A DNA stretch of 32,292 nucleotides from contig JAHFUQ010000033.1 of NCBI GenBank assembly GCA_023265045.1, forward strand, positions 1 through 32,292, given 5' to 3'. Each line of letters opens with the position of its first letter. Position 1 is the first letter of the stretch. The stretch is from Acidimicrobiia bacterium (GTDB lineage: Bacteria; Actinomycetota; Acidimicrobiia; Acidimicrobiales; AC-14). Position numbers and translations under genes: made by a program. This document shows positions 14,829-30,893 of this stretch, piece after piece. Below the pieces are notes generated by a model. It was given only the letters and a program-made list of their open reading frames with translations. It was not told where the DNA came from and did not search any database.

Positions 14829-15221
14829 GTGCCCAAACCGCTCGTGCAGAGCACCGGACGCCGCAAGGAGGCAGTGGCGCGCGTGCGCATCCGCACTGGC
14901 ACCGGCGTGATCACCATCAACAAGCGGCCGTTCAACGACTATTTCCCGAACGAGACGCACCGCATGATCGTGAGCGAGCCGCTGCGCATCACGTCGACGG
15001 CCGAGGGCTACGACGTGGACGCCACCCTCGACGGCGGCGGGGTGTCGGGCCAGGCCGGGGCCATGCGCCTGGGCATCGCCCGCGGCCTCGTCGAGATCGA
15101 CGCCGACCTGCGGCCCGCGCTCAAGAAGGGCGGGTTCCTGACTCGCGACGCCCGTGAGAAGGAGCGCAAGAAGTACGGCCTGAAGAAGGCCCGCAAGGCT
15201 CCGCAGTACTCGAAGCGCTGA
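14829..15221 (+). CDS. rpsI: 30S ribosomal protein S9
   Basis: S9 sits in the 30S head with its C-terminal tail reaching P-site tRNA. The protein is 130 aa, with [38 protein letters not shown] and the invariant C-terminal [17 protein letters not shown]. The start is GTG 14829 behind a strong GGAGGAGGAG (14816-14826). Its TGA overlaps the apparent CTG start of glmM (CTGA, 15218-15221). Confidence 0.97.
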
Positions 15222-16510
15222 CCCTTCGTTTCGGCACCGACGGCGTTCGCGGCCTCGCTAACGTCGAGCTCACCCCGGAGTACGTCCTCGCCCTGGGCCG
15301 GGCCGCGGCGCGCGTGCTGGGGCTGGGGCCGTTCCTGGTCGGGCGCGACACCCGCTGGTCGGGGCCCATGCTTTCCGCGGCGCTGGCCGCGGGCCTGGCG
15401 GCGGAGGGCGCCGAGGTCCACGACCTGGGGGTGATCCCCACGCCCGGGGTGGCGTGGTACGCGGCGGCCGAGGGCCGCCCGGCGGCGGTCGTGTCGGCGT
15501 CGCACAACCCGTTCCACGACAACGGGGTCAAGTTCTTCGGGCCGGGCGGGCGCAAGCTGTCCGACGGCCAGGAAGCGCAACTCGAGGCCGAGCTGGACGG
15601 GGGGGCGCCGGGGATCGCCGTGGGCCGGGTGACGCGCCGTGTCGACACGGGCGCCTACGAGGCGGCCTTGGCGGCGAGCTTGGCCGGGCGGCGGTTGGAC
15701 GGGCTGCGGCTCGTGCTCGACTGCGCCCACGGGGCGGCCTCGGCCGCGGCGCCGCCGGTGTTCCGGGCGCTGGGGGCCGACGTCGCGGTCATCAACGCCG
15801 AGCCCGACGGCCGCAACATCAACGAGGGGTGCGGCTCGACCCACCCTGAAGGGCTGCAGCGCGCCGTGGTGGAGGGGGGCGCGGACGTAGGACTGGCGTT
15901 TGACGGCGACGCCGACCGGGTGCTGGCGGTCGACGCCGGCGGCGCCCTGGTCGACGGCGACCACCTTCTGGCCTTGCTGGCCGTCGATCGGCGCCTCGAC
16001 ACCGTCGTCGTCACCGTGATGACCAATCTGGGCTTCCGCCACGCCATGGCGCGGCACGGGATCGCCGTGGTCGAGACGCCGGTGGGGGACCGCTGGGTGC
16101 TGGAAGCGCTGGAGAAAGGCGGGTGGCCGCTGGGGGGCGAGCAGTCGGGCCACATCATCTTCCGGGACCTGGCCACGACCGGCGACGGCCTCCTCACCGG
16201 CGTGCAGGTACTCGACGTGATGAAGCGCACCGGTCGGCCCCTGGCCGAGCTGGCGTCGGTCATGACCCGGCTGCCGCAGGTGCTGCGCAACGTGCGGGTC
16301 CCGACGGCGGGGCTGGACGCGGCCGACGGGCTGTGGGCCGAGGTGCGCGCGGTCGAGGCCGCGCTGGGCGGGGACGGGCGCGTGCTGGTGCGTCCCAGCG
16401 GCACCGAGCCGCTGGTGCGGGTCATGGTGGAGGCGACCACCGCCGAGGCGGCCGACGAGGCGTGCGAGCGGCTGGTCGCGGCCGCGGTCCGCACCCTCGG
16501 TTCCGCCTAG
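15218..16510 (+). CDS. glmM: Phosphoglucosamine mutase, apparent CTG start
   Basis: GlmM converts glucosamine-6-phosphate to glucosamine-1-phosphate for UDP-GlcNAc and peptidoglycan. From CTG 15218 the protein is 430 aa and starts [20 protein letters not shown], the family N-terminus. The catalytic phosphoserine is Ser95 in SASHNP, the magnesium loop is DGDADR (229-234), the sugar loop GGEQSGH is present, and [12 protein letters not shown] ends the phosphate-binding domain. Between the in-frame stop at 15155 and GTG 15314 there is no ATG, GTG or TTG, and GTG 15314 would delete the conserved first 32 residues. CTG overlaps the rpsI stop, so coupled initiation is likely. Confidence 0.94.
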
Positions 16511-16513
16511 CCT
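16508..16513 (+). promoter_or_regulatory. Possible -10 element for leaderless acpS
   Basis: TAGCCT covers the glmM stop codon and ends 8 bases before the acpS GTG. This matches the spacing of the other proposed leaderless starts here. No -35 box is seen and read-through from glmM is also possible. Confidence 0.3.
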
Positions 16514-16521
16514 GGCCCGCG

Positions 16522-16887
16522 GTGCACGGCATCGGGATCGACACGGTGGAGATCGACCGGTTCCGGCGGCTGCTGGACCGGCGGCCGTCCGCCGCCGACC
16601 GGCTCTTCACACCTGATGAACTGGCCTACGGGCGTCGCCAGCGAGACCCTACGGCCCGGCTGGCGGCCCGCTTCGCGGCGAAGGAAGCCGTGATGAAGGC
16701 CATGGGCGTCGGCCTGGGGGCGTTCTCGTTCCATGACGTCGAGGTCGTCGCGGCCCCGTCGGGGGCGCCGTCGCTCGTGCTCCGGGGCGGGGCGGCGGCG
16801 CTGGCGAGTCGGCTGGGGGTGGAGGGGTGGCGGCTGTCGCTGACCCACACCGATTCGACCGCCTCCGCGGTGGCGGTCGCGCTGTAA
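16522..16887 (+). CDS. acpS: Holo-[acyl-carrier-protein] synthase
   Basis: AcpS transfers 4'-phosphopantetheine from CoA to the serine of ACP, activating fatty acid synthesis. The protein is 121 aa from GTG 16522, with the magnesium-binding GIGIDTVEIDRF (Asp7) and FAAKEAVMKAMG (Glu55). The upstream in-frame extension runs inside glmM in another frame and is not coding. The stop abuts the nnrD GTG. The acpS-nnrD-alr order is standard in actinobacteria. Confidence 0.95.
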   Translation: MHGIGIDTVEIDRFRRLLDRRPSAADRLFTPDELAYGRRQRDPTARLAARFAAKEAVMKAMGVGLGAFSFHDVEVVAAPSGAPSLVLRGGAAALASRLGVEGWRLSLTHTDSTASAVAVAL

Positions 16888-18243
16888 GTGACAGTCCCGG
16901 TCGTCACGCCGGCGGAGATGAAGGCGATCGACGACGCCGCGCTCGAGCCGGTCGAGGCGCTCATCGACCGAGCCGGGGCGGCGGTGGCGCGGGCTGCGCT
17001 CGCCATGCTGGGCGGGACGTACGGCCGGCGGGTCGTGGTGGTAGCGGGCAAGGGCAACAACGGGGCCGACGGGCGCGCCGCCGCGGCGCGGCTGCGGCGC
17101 CGGGGCGTGCGGGTGGAGGTCATCGACGCCGCCGCGGCGCGGGCGCTGGCGCCCGCTCGGCTCCCGGCCGCAGACCTGGTGGTCGACGCCGCCTACGGCA
17201 CGGGGTTCCGAGGCTCGTACCAGGCGCCGAACCCCGGTGGTGCGCCGGTCCTGGCCGTCGACATCCCGTCCGGCGTCAACGGGTTGACGGGCGAGGCCGG
17301 CCCGGGGGCGGTGCGGGCCGCCAGGACGGTCACCTTCGCCGCGCTCAAGCCCGGGTTGTTGCTCGGGGCCGGGCGGGAGCTGGCGGGCGAGGTCATGGTG
17401 GTCGACATCGGCCTCCCCACCGACTCGGCCACGGCCGCCCTGGTGGAGGCGTCCGACGTGGCCGCCTGGCTGCCGCGCCGGCCTGTCGACGCCCACAAGT
17501 GGCAGACCGCCGTCTACGTCGTGGCCGGGTCGGCGGGCATGACCGGGGCCGCCCACCTCTGTGCCCGGGCGGCCATGCGGGCGGGGGCGGGGACCGTGCG
17601 GCTGGCCATCCCGGGCGTGGCGCCCGACCCCCGGTTCCTCGAAGTGGTCGGCCGCACGATTCCGGCCGCGGACTGGTCGGCCGCCGTGCGTTCCGACGCC
17701 GAGCGAGCCAAGGCGGTGGTCGTGGGGCCAGGGCTGGGCCGGACCGACGGCGTGCGGGACGCGGTGCGGCGGTTGGCGGCCGCGGCACATCAGCCGATGG
17801 TCATCGATGCGGACGGGCTCTACGCCTTGGGCCTGGCTGAGGACATGACGCTCCGCCGCGACGCGGGAACCGTTCTGACGCCCCACGACGGCGAGTTCAC
17901 CCGGCTGGCGGGTGCCAAGCCCGGCGCAGACCGGCTCGGCGCCACCCGGGACCTCGCCCGCCGCACCGGCGCCACGACCCTGCTCAAAGGGTTGACGACC
18001 ATCGTCGCCGACCCGGGTGGCAGGGCGCTGTTCACGACCACGGGCGACCACCGGCTGGCGACGGCAGGGACCGGCGACGTGCTGGCCGGGGTGATCGGGG
18101 CGTTCCTGGCCATGGGGCTCGCGCCGCTCCAGGCCGCCGGGCTCGGCGCCCACGTCCACGGCGCCGCCGGGCGGCTGGGCTTCGAGCGGGGCCTGGCGGC
18201 GGGCGACCTGCTCGACCTTCTCCCGGTTGTGCTCAACGGGTGA
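16888..18243 (+). CDS. nnrD: Bifunctional NAD(P)H-hydrate epimerase / dehydratase
   Basis: It repairs damaged NAD(P)HX: the N-terminal domain epimerises it and the C-terminal domain dehydrates it using ADP or ATP. The protein is 451 aa. The epimerase part (about 1-210) has AGKGNNGADG (53-62; many homologues have GGDG) and VDIPSGVNG. The ribokinase-like part (about 215-451) has HKWQTAVYVVAGSAGMTGAA, DADGLYALG, LTPHDGEFTRL and the nucleotide motif GTGDVLAG (about 394-401). GTG 16888 follows acpS with no gap. The last bases form GTGA with alr. Confidence 0.95.
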   Translation: MTVPVVTPAEMKAIDDAALEPVEALIDRAGAAVARAALAMLGGTYGRRVVVVAGKGNNGADGRAAAARLRRRGVRVEVIDAAAARALAPARLPAADLVVDAAYGTGFRGSYQAPNPGGAPVLAVDIPSGVNGLTGEAGPGAVRAARTVTFAALKPGLLLGAGRELAGEVMVVDIGLPTDSATAALVEASDVAAWLPRRPVDAHKWQTAVYVVAGSAGMTGAAHLCARAAMRAGAGTVRLAIPGVAPDPRFLEVVGRTIPAADWSAAVRSDAERAKAVVVGPGLGRTDGVRDAVRRLAAAAHQPMVIDADGLYALGLAEDMTLRRDAGTVLTPHDGEFTRLAGAKPGADRLGATRDLARRTGATTLLKGLTTIVADPGGRALFTTTGDHRLATAGTGDVLAGVIGAFLAMGLAPLQAAGLGAHVHGAAGRLGFERGLAAGDLLDLLPVVLNG

Positions 18244-19343
18244 ACGGCCGCCCGGCATGGGCCGAGGTGGACCTCGACGCCATCCGCCACAACGCCCGGG
18301 TCCTCGCCGGCAAGGCCGCCCCTGCGGCCCTGTGCGCGGTCGTGAAGGCGGACGGCTACGGCCACGGCGCCGTGCCGGTGGCCCGGGCCGCCCTCGAAGG
18401 CGGGGCGACCTGGCTGGCGGTAGCCATGGTCGAGGAAGGGGTCGGGCTGCGTGACGCGGGGATCACCGCCCCGATCCTGCTGCTCTCGGAGCCGCCCGAC
18501 GTGGGCGCAGCGGTCGCCGCGGGGCTGACGCCGACGGTGTACACCGAGGCCGGCGTCGCCGCCGCCGGGGACGCGCCCGTCCACCTCAAGGTCGACACAG
18601 GGATGCACCGGGTGGGCGCCGACCATGCGACGGCGGCCAAGCTCGCCCGCGCCATCCCCCGTCTCGAGGGGGTGTGGACCCACTTCGCGGTGGCTGATCA
18701 GCTCGACGACCCCTTCACCGACCTCCAGGCGGAGCGGTTCGAGGCGCTGCTCGCCGACCTCGAGGCGGCCGGCATCCGCGCGCCGCTGCGCCACGCCTCC
18801 AACTCGGCGGGCGCCCTCGGCCACCCCCACCGCCGCTACGACATGGTGCGGTGCGGGATCGCGCTTTACGGCGTCGCCCCCAGCCCGGCCATGGCGGGAC
18901 TGGCGCGCGACCTCCGCCCCGCCCTGTCGCTCAAGGCCGAGGTGTCGTACGTCAAGGAAGTCGAGGCGGGCGCCGGCGTGTCCTACGGGCTGCGGTACCG
19001 CCTGCCCGAGCCGTCCACGGTGGCGACCGTCCCGATCGGCTACGCCGACGGCGTGCCGTGGCGACTCGGCGTGACCGGCGGCGAGGCGCTCATCGGGGGA
19101 TTCCGCCGCCCCATCGCCGGCGCGGTCACGATGGACCAGATCACCGTCGACTGCGGCCCCGACCCGTCGGTGCGGCCCGGCGACGAGGTCGTGCTGATCG
19201 GCCGCCAGGGCGACGAGCACATCAGCGCCCAGGAGTGGGCCGACCGCATTGGGACGATCGCCTACGAGGTCCTCACCGGCATCGGCTCCCGGGTGCCGCG
19301 GGAATACGACTCGCCGAGGTCTCCGCGCACCTGGGGTCCATGA
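18240..19343 (+). CDS. alr: Alanine racemase
   Basis: It is a PLP enzyme making D-alanine for peptidoglycan. The protein is 367 aa. The PLP lysine is Lys36 in VVKADGYGHG, the opposing catalytic tyrosine is Tyr249 in GVSYGLRY, and IGYADG and TMDQ (297-300) complete the site. GTG 18240 overlaps the nnrD stop. The last ~15 residues (SPRSPRTWGP end) are non-conserved. It is convergent with the protease gene, 26 bases away. Confidence 0.96.
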   Translation: MNGRPAWAEVDLDAIRHNARVLAGKAAPAALCAVVKADGYGHGAVPVARAALEGGATWLAVAMVEEGVGLRDAGITAPILLLSEPPDVGAAVAAGLTPTVYTEAGVAAAGDAPVHLKVDTGMHRVGADHATAAKLARAIPRLEGVWTHFAVADQLDDPFTDLQAERFEALLADLEAAGIRAPLRHASNSAGALGHPHRRYDMVRCGIALYGVAPSPAMAGLARDLRPALSLKAEVSYVKEVEAGAGVSYGLRYRLPEPSTVATVPIGYADGVPWRLGVTGGEALIGGFRRPIAGAVTMDQITVDCGPDPSVRPGDEVVLIGRQGDEHISAQEWADRIGTIAYEVLTGIGSRVPREYDSPRSPRTWGP

Positions 19344-25507: not shown

Positions 25508-27196
<1,689 letters not shown>

Positions 27197-27200
27197 TTAC

Positions 27201-27229
27201 GGGGAGGGCAGGGCCGCTCAGGGGGAGGG
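27201..27229 (+). other. G-quadruplex-like G-tracts after groEL
   Basis: Four runs of three or more G (27201-27204, 27206-27208, 27211-27213, 27221-27225) with loops of 1, 2 and 7 bases fit the quadruplex pattern. They overlap the left arm of the hairpin at 27219-27244. Confidence 0.35.
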
Positions 27230-27244
27230 CAGGCCCTCCCCCTG
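27219..27244 (+). terminator. Strong hairpin terminating groESL
   Basis: CAGGGGGAGGGC (27219-27230) is perfectly complementary to GCCCTCCCCCTG (27233-27244). Allowing a four-base loop, 11 pairs form, nearly all G-C. It lies 22 bases after the groEL stop. No T-run follows. A second small palindrome (27267-27272 with 27275-27280) lies close to the ferredoxin stop and could act for that gene. Confidence 0.65.
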
Positions 27245-27283
27245 GACCCCCTCCCGGCGCTCGGCAGCCGACCTGTCGGCGGC

Positions 27284-27493
27284 TTAGGAGATTTTCTTGC
27301 CGTCCTGGAGCACGGTGATTGCCCCGGTCGGGCACGCCTCCGCGGCTTCCAGGATCGCCTCCAGCGGCTCGCCGTTTGGGTTCTTCACGGACGAGACGCG
27401 GGTGGCGTCGAGTTCGAATACCCCCGGCGCGCGGTTGACGCATGCCTTGGTGGCGATGCACTTGTGCCGGCTCACAGCCACCTCGATAGACAC
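27284..27493 (-). CDS. Single-cluster ferredoxin, probably [3Fe-4S]
   Basis: This is a 69-aa cytosolic electron carrier. Cluster ligands are Cys12, Cys18 and Cys54 (CIATKAC and CPTGAI). The position of the second cysteine of a [4Fe-4S] motif is Ala/Thr, so a [3Fe-4S] cluster is expected, as in ferredoxins that serve cytochromes P450. APGVFELD and the C-terminal CPTGAITV are typical. The GTG start at 27493 lies 6 bases after a -10 box shared palindromically with the divergent GlmS-like gene. No partner P450 is in the window. Confidence 0.88.
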   Translation of the reverse strand: MSIEVAVSRHKCIATKACVNRAPGVFELDATRVSSVKNPNGEPLEAILEAAEACPTGAITVLQDGKKIS

Positions 27494-27499
27494 GAGGGA

Positions 27500-27509
27500 A
27501 GGCTAGCCT
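27500..27509. promoter_or_regulatory. Palindromic shared -10 of ferredoxin and GlmS-like genes
   Basis: AGGCTAGCCT is a perfect 10-bp palindrome and reads TAGCCT on both strands. The plus-strand box (27504-27509) ends 9 bases before ATG 27519, and the minus-strand box (27505-27500) ends 6 bases before GTG 27493. Both genes would be leaderless or nearly so. Confidence 0.5.
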
Positions 27510-27518
27510 CGGGTCGCC

Positions 27519-30500
27519 ATGTGCGGCATCGTCGCTGTCCTTCGCCGTCCCAGTCGCCGTCCGCCGCCGTCGGGCGACGCCGTGCTCAGCGCCCTCGACA
27601 CGGCGCTGGCGACCGTCGATCTCGAATCGTTGGGCGACGTCGCCGCGTCGGTCGCCGCCGTCGACCGGTCGTTGCGGGGCGTGGCCGGCGTACGGGCGCT
27701 CGTCGACCCTGCGCTGCGCGGCCGCGTCGAGGCGCGGGTGCACCGGCTCGAAGCCGAGGTGGCGCGGATCGAGGCAGATCTCGACGCTGGCGGGCGGCCG
27801 CTGACCCCGGCCGCGATCGAAGCGGTGAACGCGGCCCTCATCGGGCTCAAGGACGGGCTCTGGGCCATCCGCCAGGACCGGCTGCGCACGGCGCGGGCGG
27901 TGGGCGAGCTGGCCGGGGCCGGCGCGGAGGCAGGGGGCTCCGTCCTCGAGGCGTACACGTCCATCCAGGTGGCGCTCTCCGCCATCGACCGCCTCGAGGT
28001 TCGGGGACGGGACTCGGCGGGGCTGCATGTCCTGGTCGAGGGCCACGGCCTCGAGGTGGACAGCGCCGACGTCCAGGCCCTGCTGAGCGGGCGGGCGGAC
28101 GACAGCCTCTTCATGTCAGGGGCGGTGCGGGTGACGGGCGCCTACCTGGCGTTCGTGTACAAGGCGGCGGCCGAGATCGGCGAGCTGGGCGACAACACCC
28201 GCCGGCTCAGGGACGCGGTGCGGTCCGACGACTTGTTGCGCCTGGCGCTGCAGGCGCCGACGGCGCGCGCCGCCGTGCTGGGCCACACCCGGTGGGCCAG
28301 CGTCGGCATCATCTCCGAGGCCAACGCCCACCCCCTGAACCAGGAGGAAGACGGCCGGGCGCCGGGGCCGTACGTTGTCGGCGCCCTCAACGGGGACGTC
28401 GACAACTACCCGACGCTGAAGCTTCGCGAGGCCCTCTCGGTGCCCCCCGAGGTCACCACCGACGCAAAGGTCATCCCTGTGCTGGTGTCCCGGGCGGTGG
28501 ACGCCGGCGCGCCCCTCGACCAGGCCTTCCTGGCCACGGCCCGCATGCTGGAAGGGTCGGTGGCGGTGGCGGCGGCGTGCGCCGACGAGCCCCGCAAGCT
28601 CGTCCTCGCCCTGCGGGGCAGCGGGCAGGCCCTGTACGTGGGGCTGGCCGAGGACGCGTTCGTGGTCGCCAGCGAGCCCTACGGCCTGGTGGAGGAGACC
28701 CCCCGGTACCTGCGCATGGACGGCGAGTCGGGCGCCACGCCCGGCCAGGTGGTGGTGCTCGACGCCGACCGGGCCGGGGACCTCGCCGGGCTGACCCGGC
28801 TGGGCTACGGCGGCGCCGCGCTGCCCGTCGCCGAGGCCGAGGTGCGCACCGCGGAGATCACGACGCGCGACGTCGACCGGGCCGGCTACCCGCACTACCT
28901 CCTCAAGGAGATCTCCCAGGCGCCGGCGTCGTTCCGGAAGACCTTGCGGGGCCGCCTCGGCCCGGCGGGCGTCACCCTCGGCGAGGAGGCGCTGCCTCTG
29001 GCGTTGCGCCAGCGGTTGCACGACGGTGCGGTGCGGCGGATCGTCGGCATCGGACAGGGCACGGCGGCGATCGCGGCGCAGGGCTTCGCCGCCGTCCTCG
29101 CCCCGCTGCTCGCCCGCTCCGGCGTGGTGGTGGACGCCACGCTCGCCACCGAGCTGTCCGGCTTCGGCCTGGCCGACGACATGAGCGACACCCTCGTCGT
29201 CGCGGTCAGCCAGTCGGGCACCACCACGGACACCAACCGCACCGTCGATCTCGCCCGCGCCCGGGGCGCGGCGGTGATCGGGATCGTCAACCGGCGCAAC
29301 AGCGACCTGGTCGAGAAGGTGGACGGCGTGCTCTACACCTCCGACGGCCGGGACGTGGAGATGGCGGTGCCCTCGACCAAGGCGTTCTACGCCCAGGTGG
29401 CGGCGGGCGTGCTTCTGGCGGCGGCGCTGGCCGACGAGCTGGGCCGCAAGGGCCACGCCGTCACCCGGTTGTTGGAGGGGTTGCGGGAGCTGCCGGCGGC
29501 CATGGAGGCGGTGCTGGCCCGGCGGCCGGCGATCGCGGCCGCGGCCCAAGCCCATGCTCCCTCGCGCCGGTACTGGGCCGTGGTCGGGAACGGGTCCAAC
29601 CGGATCGCCGCCCAAGAAGTGCGGGTCAAGCTCTCAGAGCTCTGCTACAAGGCCATCGCCTGCGACCAGACCGAGGACAAAAAGCACATCGACCTGTCCT
29701 CGGAGCCGCTGATCCTGGTGTGCGCGTCCGGCCTGTCGGGGGTGAACGTCGACGACGTGGCCAAGGAGGTGGCGATCTACCGGGCCCATAAGGCGGCGCC
29801 GATCGTCATCGCCGACGAAGGGGTCACGCGCTTCGAGGCGGCCATGGAGGTGTTGACCGTGCCGGTGGTGGCGCCGGCGCTGGCGTTCGTGCTGACCGCC
29901 ATGGTCGGGCACATCTTCGGCTACGAGGCCGCCCTGGCCATCGACGCCCAGGCCCGCCCGCTGCGGGAGGTGCGGGGCGCGGTCGAGGAGGTCCTGGCGG
30001 GCGGGAACGGGCTCGATCCCCTCCACCAGCTGGCGGCGCTGGCGGCCCGTCCCGCGTCGTCGTTCCTGGCCGAACTCCGGGCCGGCGCCTACGACGGGCA
30101 CCTGGAGGCGAGCACCGCGCTGCGCGTCGCGACGCTCTTGCGCCACGCCACGTCGACCAGCGGGCTGGAGGGGTACGAGGCCGAGACCGGCCGGGTGGCC
30201 ACGCCGACCGCTTTCCTGGCCGACCTGACCGACGGGCTGACGCGGGCGATCGGCGAGCTGACCCGTCCCGTCGACGCCATCAAGCACCAGGCCAAGACGG
30301 TGACGGTCGGCATCTCCCGGTCCGAGGAAGCCCTGTACGGGAACGGGCTGGTGCGGGCGGTGCTGGAGGCGGGCGCGCCGAGGGACCGGCTGGGGTACCG
30401 GGCGTTGCGCACGCTGGTGGCGTTGGAACCGGCCGTGGTCGAGGTCACCGGGTGGACCCGCTACCAGGTCGACGGGCTGACTGTGCGGGTCGTCGACCGG

Positions 30501-30893
30501 GGCGGGGTGGCGTTGGACATCCCCACCCGGACCGACCGGGACCCCCGCCTGCGGGGCTCGAAGCACCGGGCCGCCACGTTGCGGGAGGTGCTGGTGGCGC
30601 GGGGCGGCGCCGACCAGCGGACGGTGCTGATCGTGCCCGAGGTGAAGAACGGCGAGGTGACCGGGCTCACGCTTTTGCACGCCCAGTTCCGCGAGCGGTT
30701 GGCGGCCGACGACGCCCGGGGCGTGCTGGCCGGCTACCTCGACCGCTACGACGCGTTGGTGGACGCGGTGACCGAGCGGGAGCCGGCGTTCGAGGAGTCG
30801 GTGCTGGCGTCGATCTCGATCGTGGACCTGCTCACCGAGCCGGTCCGTACGCTGGCAGTACATTGGGGGGCACATGGACAGACCGCCCCCTGA
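27519..30893 (+). CDS. Giant GlmS-like glutamine amidotransferase with two SIS domains
   Basis: The protein is 1124 aa; GlmS is ~610. The N-terminal nucleophile Cys2 (MCGIVAV) opens a class II glutaminase that is interrupted by about 110-130 mostly helical residues (about 25-145). It then resumes with RLEVRGRDSAG (158-168), HTRWAS (256-261), NGDVDNY (291-297) and TDAK (314-317). KEISQAP (463-469) marks the linker. SIS1 spans about 505-640 (SQSGTTTDT, STKAF) and SIS2 about 684-805 (VKLSELCYK, KKH at 721-723). The last ~320 residues are not GlmS, except AKTVTV (925-930), which resembles the GlmS end. Likely makes glucosamine-6-phosphate from fructose-6-phosphate and glutamine, supplying glmM in this window, but substrate is inferred. 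Confidence 0.8.
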   Translation: MCGIVAVLRRPSRRPPPSGDAVLSALDTALATVDLESLGDVAASVAAVDRSLRGVAGVRALVDPALRGRVEARVHRLEAEVARIEADLDAGGRPLTPAAIEAVNAALIGLKDGLWAIRQDRLRTARAVGELAGAGAEAGGSVLEAYTSIQVALSAIDRLEVRGRDSAGLHVLVEGHGLEVDSADVQALLSGRADDSLFMSGAVRVTGAYLAFVYKAAAEIGELGDNTRRLRDAVRSDDLLRLALQAPTARAAVLGHTRWASVGIISEANAHPLNQEEDGRAPGPYVVGALNGDVDNYPTLKLREALSVPPEVTTDAKVIPVLVSRAVDAGAPLDQAFLATARMLEGSVAVAAACADEPRKLVLALRGSGQALYVGLAEDAFVVASEPYGLVEETPRYLRMDGESGATPGQVVVLDADRAGDLAGLTRLGYGGAALPVAEAEVRTAEITTRDVDRAGYPHYLLKEISQAPASFRKTLRGRLGPAGVTLGEEALPLALRQRLHDGAVRRIVGIGQGTAAIAAQGFAAVLAPLLARSGVVVDATLATELSGFGLADDMSDTLVVAVSQSGTTTDTNRTVDLARARGAAVIGIVNRRNSDLVEKVDGVLYTSDGRDVEMAVPSTKAFYAQVAAGVLLAAALADELGRKGHAVTRLLEGLRELPAAMEAVLARRPAIAAAAQAHAPSRRYWAVVGNGSNRIAAQEVRVKLSELCYKAIACDQTEDKKHIDLSSEPLILVCASGLSGVNVDDVAKEVAIYRAHKAAPIVIADEGVTRFEAAMEVLTVPVVAPALAFVLTAMVGHIFGYEAALAIDAQARPLREVRGAVEEVLAGGNGLDPLHQLAALAARPASSFLAELRAGAYDGHLEASTALRVATLLRHATSTSGLEGYEAETGRVATPTAFLADLTDGLTRAIGELTRPVDAIKHQAKTVTVGISRSEEALYGNGLVRAVLEAGAPRDRLGYRALRTLVALEPAVVEVTGWTRYQVDGLTVRVVDRGGVALDIPTRTDRDPRLRGSKHRAATLREVLVARGGADQRTVLIVPEVKNGEVTGLTLLHAQFRERLAADDARGVLAGYLDRYDALVDAVTEREPAFEESVLASISIVDLLTEPVRTLAVHWGAHGQTAP

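Follow-up and report, generated by a model that had tools for sequence, protein, structure and literature searches.

The window analysed here, a stretch of 32,292 nucleotides, encodes on its forward strand a long GlmS-like enzyme of 1124 amino acids, P0001 (27519..30893), which is very probably the GlmS of the organism. GlmS makes the first amino sugar of the cell wall; it is a near-universal, essential enzyme and a drug target, and its architecture, ending in a catalytic tail, is regarded as fixed. The form described here is nearly double-sized and replaces the normal form in many actinobacterial families. Its apparently internal tail and the unannotated domain behind it would mean that the GlmS design can be rebuilt. 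We are highly confident that the long form works like GlmS. To the whole model, a GlcN-6-P synthase with a ligand-sensing module joined to a displaced tail, we assign a probability of about 0.6. No description of the long form was found in the open-access literature searched.

The reading frame starts with ATG and runs for 1124 codons with no internal stop. An initial annotation, made from the letters alone, had reported glutaminase catalytic residues and two SIS domains and had proposed an HMM search. That search found both Pfam domains, GATase_6 (amino acids 251-386, 2.8e-12) and SIS (506-635, 1.5e-18), and the motifs MCGI, RGRDSAG (162-168) and HTRW (256-259) are present where the annotation had placed them. 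The NCBIfam glmS model TIGR01135 aligned with amino acids 237-807 (4e-65) at 220.5 bits, about half of its curated cut-off of 418 bits, and none of the long forms with a listed score reached that value. As curated, the TIGR01135 equivalog does not include the long form, and the halved score counts against the model of a GlmS with a sensor. Because the long form scores below the cut-off, a search by curated score finds no glmS in genomes that carry it. Sequence matches in PDB were to E. coli GlmS and human GFAT. The AF2 model of P0001, built with 63 sequences, has a pLDDT of 88.5 and a pTM of 0.79; its best Foldseek hits in PDB, with E of about 1e-26, were to human GFAT-1 and E. coli GlmS, and a comparison limited to the isomerase domain gave a TMt of 0.87. 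No element was matched when the window was screened against Rfam, so no glmS ribozyme was found, and a search for defence systems gave no match.

Relatives were gathered into an alignment set of 63 distinct full-length proteins, P0001 included, which are 1085-1211 amino acids long and 42-75% identical to P0001. In pairwise comparisons third codon positions vary most in every segment, the inserts included. Since the long architecture is common to the 63 relatives and the third-position excess is present in all segments, this architecture is not a product of chance.

P0001 has four extra segments in addition to its glutaminase domain and its two SIS domains. The N-terminal strand MCGI (27519..27545), invariant in 63/63, carries the catalytic Cys2, which is Cys1 after removal of the methionine. 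Behind this strand the initial annotation had noted an insertion of 110-130 residues, and alignment to normal GlmS gives about 130 (insertion 1, amino acids 10-145; 27546..27953), with a range of 104-189 among relatives. Insertion 1 is the least conserved segment of the 63 long forms (0.50). AF2 predicts it to be all-helical, with helices at 19-32, 35-52, 54-61, 64-90 and 97-132, followed by one at 140-159, and our guess is that it helps in assembly or packs around the glutaminase. The glutamine-site motif RGRDSAG lies at 28002..28022, with R162, G163, D165 and S166 in 63/63, and is followed by the insertion 2 region (amino acids 173-249; 28035..28265), where alignment bears out the enlargement that the initial annotation had noted between DSAG and HTRW, of about 50 amino acids over normal GlmS. 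The remaining glutaminase domain (28266..28838), identified by GATase_6 and conserved columns, includes R258, W259, H271, N291, G292 and D315. SIS1 (28839..29498) contains SQSGTT (564-569) and STK (619-621) and is covered by the Pfam SIS match; SIS2 (29499..29942) contains K704, E707 and H723, which align with E. coli K485, E488 and H504. The Pfam match, these three residues and the isomerase fold match agree on two SIS domains. The approximately 320 residues reported beyond SIS2 are right in length (316 after the SIS2 core), but they do not form a single extension: the region divides into an insertion, a tail and a C-terminal domain.

Active-site positions were compared in a joint alignment of the 63 long forms with 22 normal GlmS, using E. 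coli numbering for normal positions. On the glutaminase side C1, R26, G27, D29, S30, R73, W74, H86, N98, G99 and D123 are kept in 63/63 long forms, as are G301, Q348, S349, E396, V399, K403, K485, E488 and H504 on the isomerase side and A602, K603 and V605 in the tail. The long forms thus share with GlmS an N-terminal Cys glutaminase with Arg26, Arg73, Trp74, Asn98, Gly99 and Asp123, and two SIS domains with Lys485, Glu488 and His504. Invariant residues in P0001 numbering (63/63) include C2, R162, G163, D165, R258, W259, N291, G292, D315, S564-Q-S, K621, K704, E707, H723 and K926. Cys1 serves glutamine hydrolysis, and Glu488, His504 and Lys603 serve isomerisation (PMC9272926). T302 and T352 are conserved except for one Ser each. 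Other positions have changed: T76 to Ser, H77 mostly to Val, S303 always to Ala (as in some normal GlmS), and R599, N600 and L601 of the tail to Lys/Arg, His and Gln, respectively. The changes at H77, S303, R599, N600 and L601 are a further point against the GlmS and sensor model. They would suit an SIS amidotransferase that acts on another keto-sugar phosphate, with GlcN-6-P coming from elsewhere, as would the divergence from normal GlmS described below; that all residues of the Fru-6-P chemistry are retained is among the reasons why we think such an enzyme very improbable.

Normal GlmS ends in VDQPRNLAKSVTVE (LAKSVTVE, Lys603), shortly beyond the SIS2 core. At that point the long forms have no conserved lysine; a matching (V/I)DAIKHQAKTVTVGISR lies about 110 residues further on, behind the helical insertion 3 (amino acids 809-917; 29943..30269, from alignment and AF2), which separates it from the SIS2 core. 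Here, at amino acids 918-934 (30270..30320, from conservation and motif), an invariant QAKTVTVG resembles the normal tail, and from the sequences the catalytic C-terminal tail of GlmS appears to have been displaced inward, with Lys926 equivalent to Lys603. K926 is 198 residues from the C-terminus, and the long form therefore departs from GlmS in not having the Lys603 tail at its very end. A coincidental resemblance, with another lysine or another mechanism in use, would be compatible with a GlmS with or without a sensor. It would agree with the result that a profile HMM built from just the normal tail scores below significance on the long forms (P0001 reaches 1.8 bits, decoys up to 6.0), which also weighs on the sensor model, and with the AF2 prediction of the tail as a low-confidence helix (pLDDT below 50). 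We nevertheless judge coincidence unlikely, given that AK[ST]VTV occurs once per protein, at one site, in 63/63 long forms, while of 300,000 shuffles of amino acids 809-1124 just 17 contained it and none the full spaced motif. The spacing from the preceding Asp is kept, the stretch is the most conserved of the protein (0.97), and K926 and K1015 are the only invariant lysines beyond amino acid 808. As the normal-tail profile is not significant, the displaced tail is assigned by its conservation, spacing and order and by the requirement for a lysine; as the tail has a pLDDT below 50, the placement of Lys926 in the active site is a proposal.

Behind the tail is a C-terminal domain of about 190 residues (amino acids 935-1124; 30321..30890), predicted by AF2 to have a beta-beta-alpha-beta-beta-beta core. 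Sequence searches of Pfam and PDB found no relative of it, and among 247 genomes of the phylum searched it is present only in long GlmS. The structure predictions proposed in the initial annotation gave, besides the helices of insertion 1, a model of the C-terminal domain folded together with amino acids 806-934, with a pLDDT of 93.7. The top 50 Foldseek matches of this region (806-1124) in PDB belong for the most part to sensor domains of the GAF, PAS and Cache types, although they are weak (the best E is 2.8e-3, none falls below 0.001, and TMt does not exceed 0.45), a weakness that tells against the sensor part of our model. High-probability fold matches (PDB 3eea, 5w10, 3e0y, 3ksf) are like amino acids 960-1057 in the order of strands and helices, but they are without sequence relation to the long GlmS domain and have low TM-scores. 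The comparison is suggestive of a GAF/PAS-like fold, and we treat it as a lead, not proof. The enzyme may instead be a GlmS whose extra parts are structural, forming a larger oligomer or docking GlmM without ligand sensing. Purely helical segments (insertion 1 and amino acids 809-917), the lack of a sequence match to any known ligand-binding family and the clustering of the gene with glmM would fit such a role. The prevalence of sensor domains among the fold matches would not, nor would the conservation of the C-terminal domain, which is nearly that of the glutaminase domain (0.67 vs 0.69), and we regard a purely structural role as possible though somewhat unlikely.

Relatives with names are from Acidimicrobiia, Acidimicrobiales, Ilumatobacteraceae and unplaced actinobacteria, mostly the same class as the window; some long forms occur outside the class, in families f46, f53, f73 and f76. 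Systematic searches covered the phylum of the window, and a single scan of genome contigs used short patterns that reach close relatives only. All glmS-profile candidates were scored in 41 genomes, including that of the window: the long form is the sole type in 28 and the normal GlmS of about 600 amino acids the sole type in 13, with none having both and none having neither. Long-only and normal-only genomes both occur within the family of the window. In a larger sample, 395 genomes from the class with only three candidates scored in each, 209 had a match above the TIGR01135 cut-off and 154 matched below it, the latter group including long forms and fragments. In one relative (G020:C1:1179740-1183184) the long GlmS is read as two overlapping frames on one contig, split at amino acid 727, which may be a frameshift, a sequencing error or a real split gene.

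The initial annotation had suggested that P0001 could be the only GlmS of the organism, rebuilt with extra parts, or else a new SIS amidotransferase for another sugar, for which no positive evidence was found. The first suggestion is upheld by the mutual exclusion of the two forms in the 41 genomes and by the organism's own genome, in which a search for a normal glmS, named in that annotation as a refuting finding, gave none; the assembly is 85% complete, with 5.9% contamination, and its incompleteness is a reservation about our model. Plasmid records gave partial matches to normal GlmS only, none covering 80% of the query. Some genomes run counter to the model: G082, outside the class and with 5% contamination, has the long form and a normal GlmS, G769 has the long form and a 236-amino-acid piece of normal GlmS at a contig edge, and a few genomes in the wider samples beyond the 41 show neither.

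Long and normal GlmS are about 30% identical over 599 shared columns. In the tree a single branch, 1.84 substitutions per site long and with support 1.0, lies between them, and the normal GlmS proteins of this order cluster with further normal forms, among them sequences from archaea and Bacillota. From the single long branch and this grouping, the long form is an old separate lineage that replaces the normal one; judged by these sequences, it is not a recent modification of normal GlmS.

Gene order in the relatives is rpsI-glmM-long GlmS-acpS-nnr-alr-tsaE-tsaB-tsaD-groES-groEL, and in most of them the long gene occupies exactly the position X of rpsI-glmM-X-acpS that normal glmS has. The same order holds in the window, except that its long GlmS gene has shifted from the gap between glmM and acpS to just behind groEL (25511..27196, forward strand; intervening gap 27196-27519). 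The gene for the next pathway step, glmM (15221..16510, forward, start approximate; TIGR01455, 498 bits, above cut-off), is directly followed by acpS (16522..16887, forward), with the empty glmS slot at 16510-16522, and alr, for alanine racemase (18240..19343, forward; TIGR00492, above cut-off), belongs to the same cluster. The nearest relative (L010, in G003) has the same groEL-GlmS neighbours, which suggests one local relocation. The long copies of family f76 and of G082 also lie outside the glmM slot. A small ferredoxin-like frame was read by eye on the reverse strand at 27286-27495, between groEL and the long GlmS gene.

P0001 is thus the sole enzyme of its kind in its genome and stands in the context of its pathway. 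The lack of a normal glmS, the exclusive distribution (28 vs 13), the slot in relatives and a glmM above its cut-off favour a GlmS with a sensor. For an enzyme of another sugar phosphate, the low identity and long branch could be expected; the complete exclusion, the occupied glmS slot and the absence of a further GlmS candidate in the genome could not.

In the GlmS and sensor model, Cys2 would release ammonia from glutamine, which would be passed on to the SIS domains; these would form GlcN-6-P from Fru-6-P and supply GlmM, encoded in the same cluster. The helical insertion would displace the tail with the isomerisation residue Lys926, and a GAF/PAS-like module would then come at the C-terminus, where it may sense a small molecule, alter the entry of Lys926 into the active site and so exert allosteric control. 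A more specific version, which we offer tentatively and think rather doubtful, is that the Lys926 segment is the moving part of a switch, inserted or withdrawn as the sensor binds a metabolite of the pathway, for instance UDP-GlcNAc. If true, feedback control of a bacterial GlmS would have evolved apart from that of eukaryotic GFAT.

A later enzyme of the pathway also shows an altered architecture. The GlmU at G000:C168:1470-2531 stops near position 344 of the 452-position model, and so does almost every GlmU that was found in the order, whether it accompanies long or normal GlmS; full-length GlmU is present in three genomes sampled elsewhere in the class. The cut falls before His363 and the other residues that catalyse acetyl transfer. 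With GlmU truncated, another GlcN-1-P acetyltransferase would be needed in the order. The C-terminal domain of long GlmS was considered for this role and rejected: truncated GlmU accompanies both GlmS types in the order, and G056 pairs long GlmS with full-length GlmU. GlmU of two genomes of family f44, in the same phylum (G059 and G087), is cut at about 334-346, possibly a second independent truncation.

Among known systems, eukaryotic GFAT-1 (PDB 6r4e and others), which gave the best Foldseek matches, shares the core fold with the long form. GFAT has few extra residues and keeps its tail terminal, and GFAT-1 is without an appended sensor-like domain. Bacterial GlmS (TIGR01135; E. coli, PDB 1jxa and 2j6h) shares with the long form the Ntn N-terminal Cys glutaminase, two SIS domains, the chemistry residues and the genomic slot. 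It is 589-716 amino acids long (PMC9272926), compared to 1085-1211 for the long form, and has a terminal tail, whereas the long form has an internal tail, four extra segments and a score below the cut-off. Eukaryotic GFAT is feedback-regulated by UDP-GlcNAc (PMC9272926, PMC7000685), which is the kind of control proposed here for the long form. In bacteria, in contrast to the UDP-GlcNAc feedback inhibition of the eukaryotic enzyme, expression is controlled by small RNA (PMC9272926). Papers on B. subtilis GlmR (PMC6171935) and on Salmonella EIIANtr (PMC5024086) concern routes to amino-sugar control by partner proteins. Relative to what these three accounts (PMC9272926, PMC6171935, PMC5024086) describe, a sensor built into a bacterial GlmS would be new, and the long GlmS offers a direct test case for feedback control of bacterial amino-sugar synthesis at the protein level.
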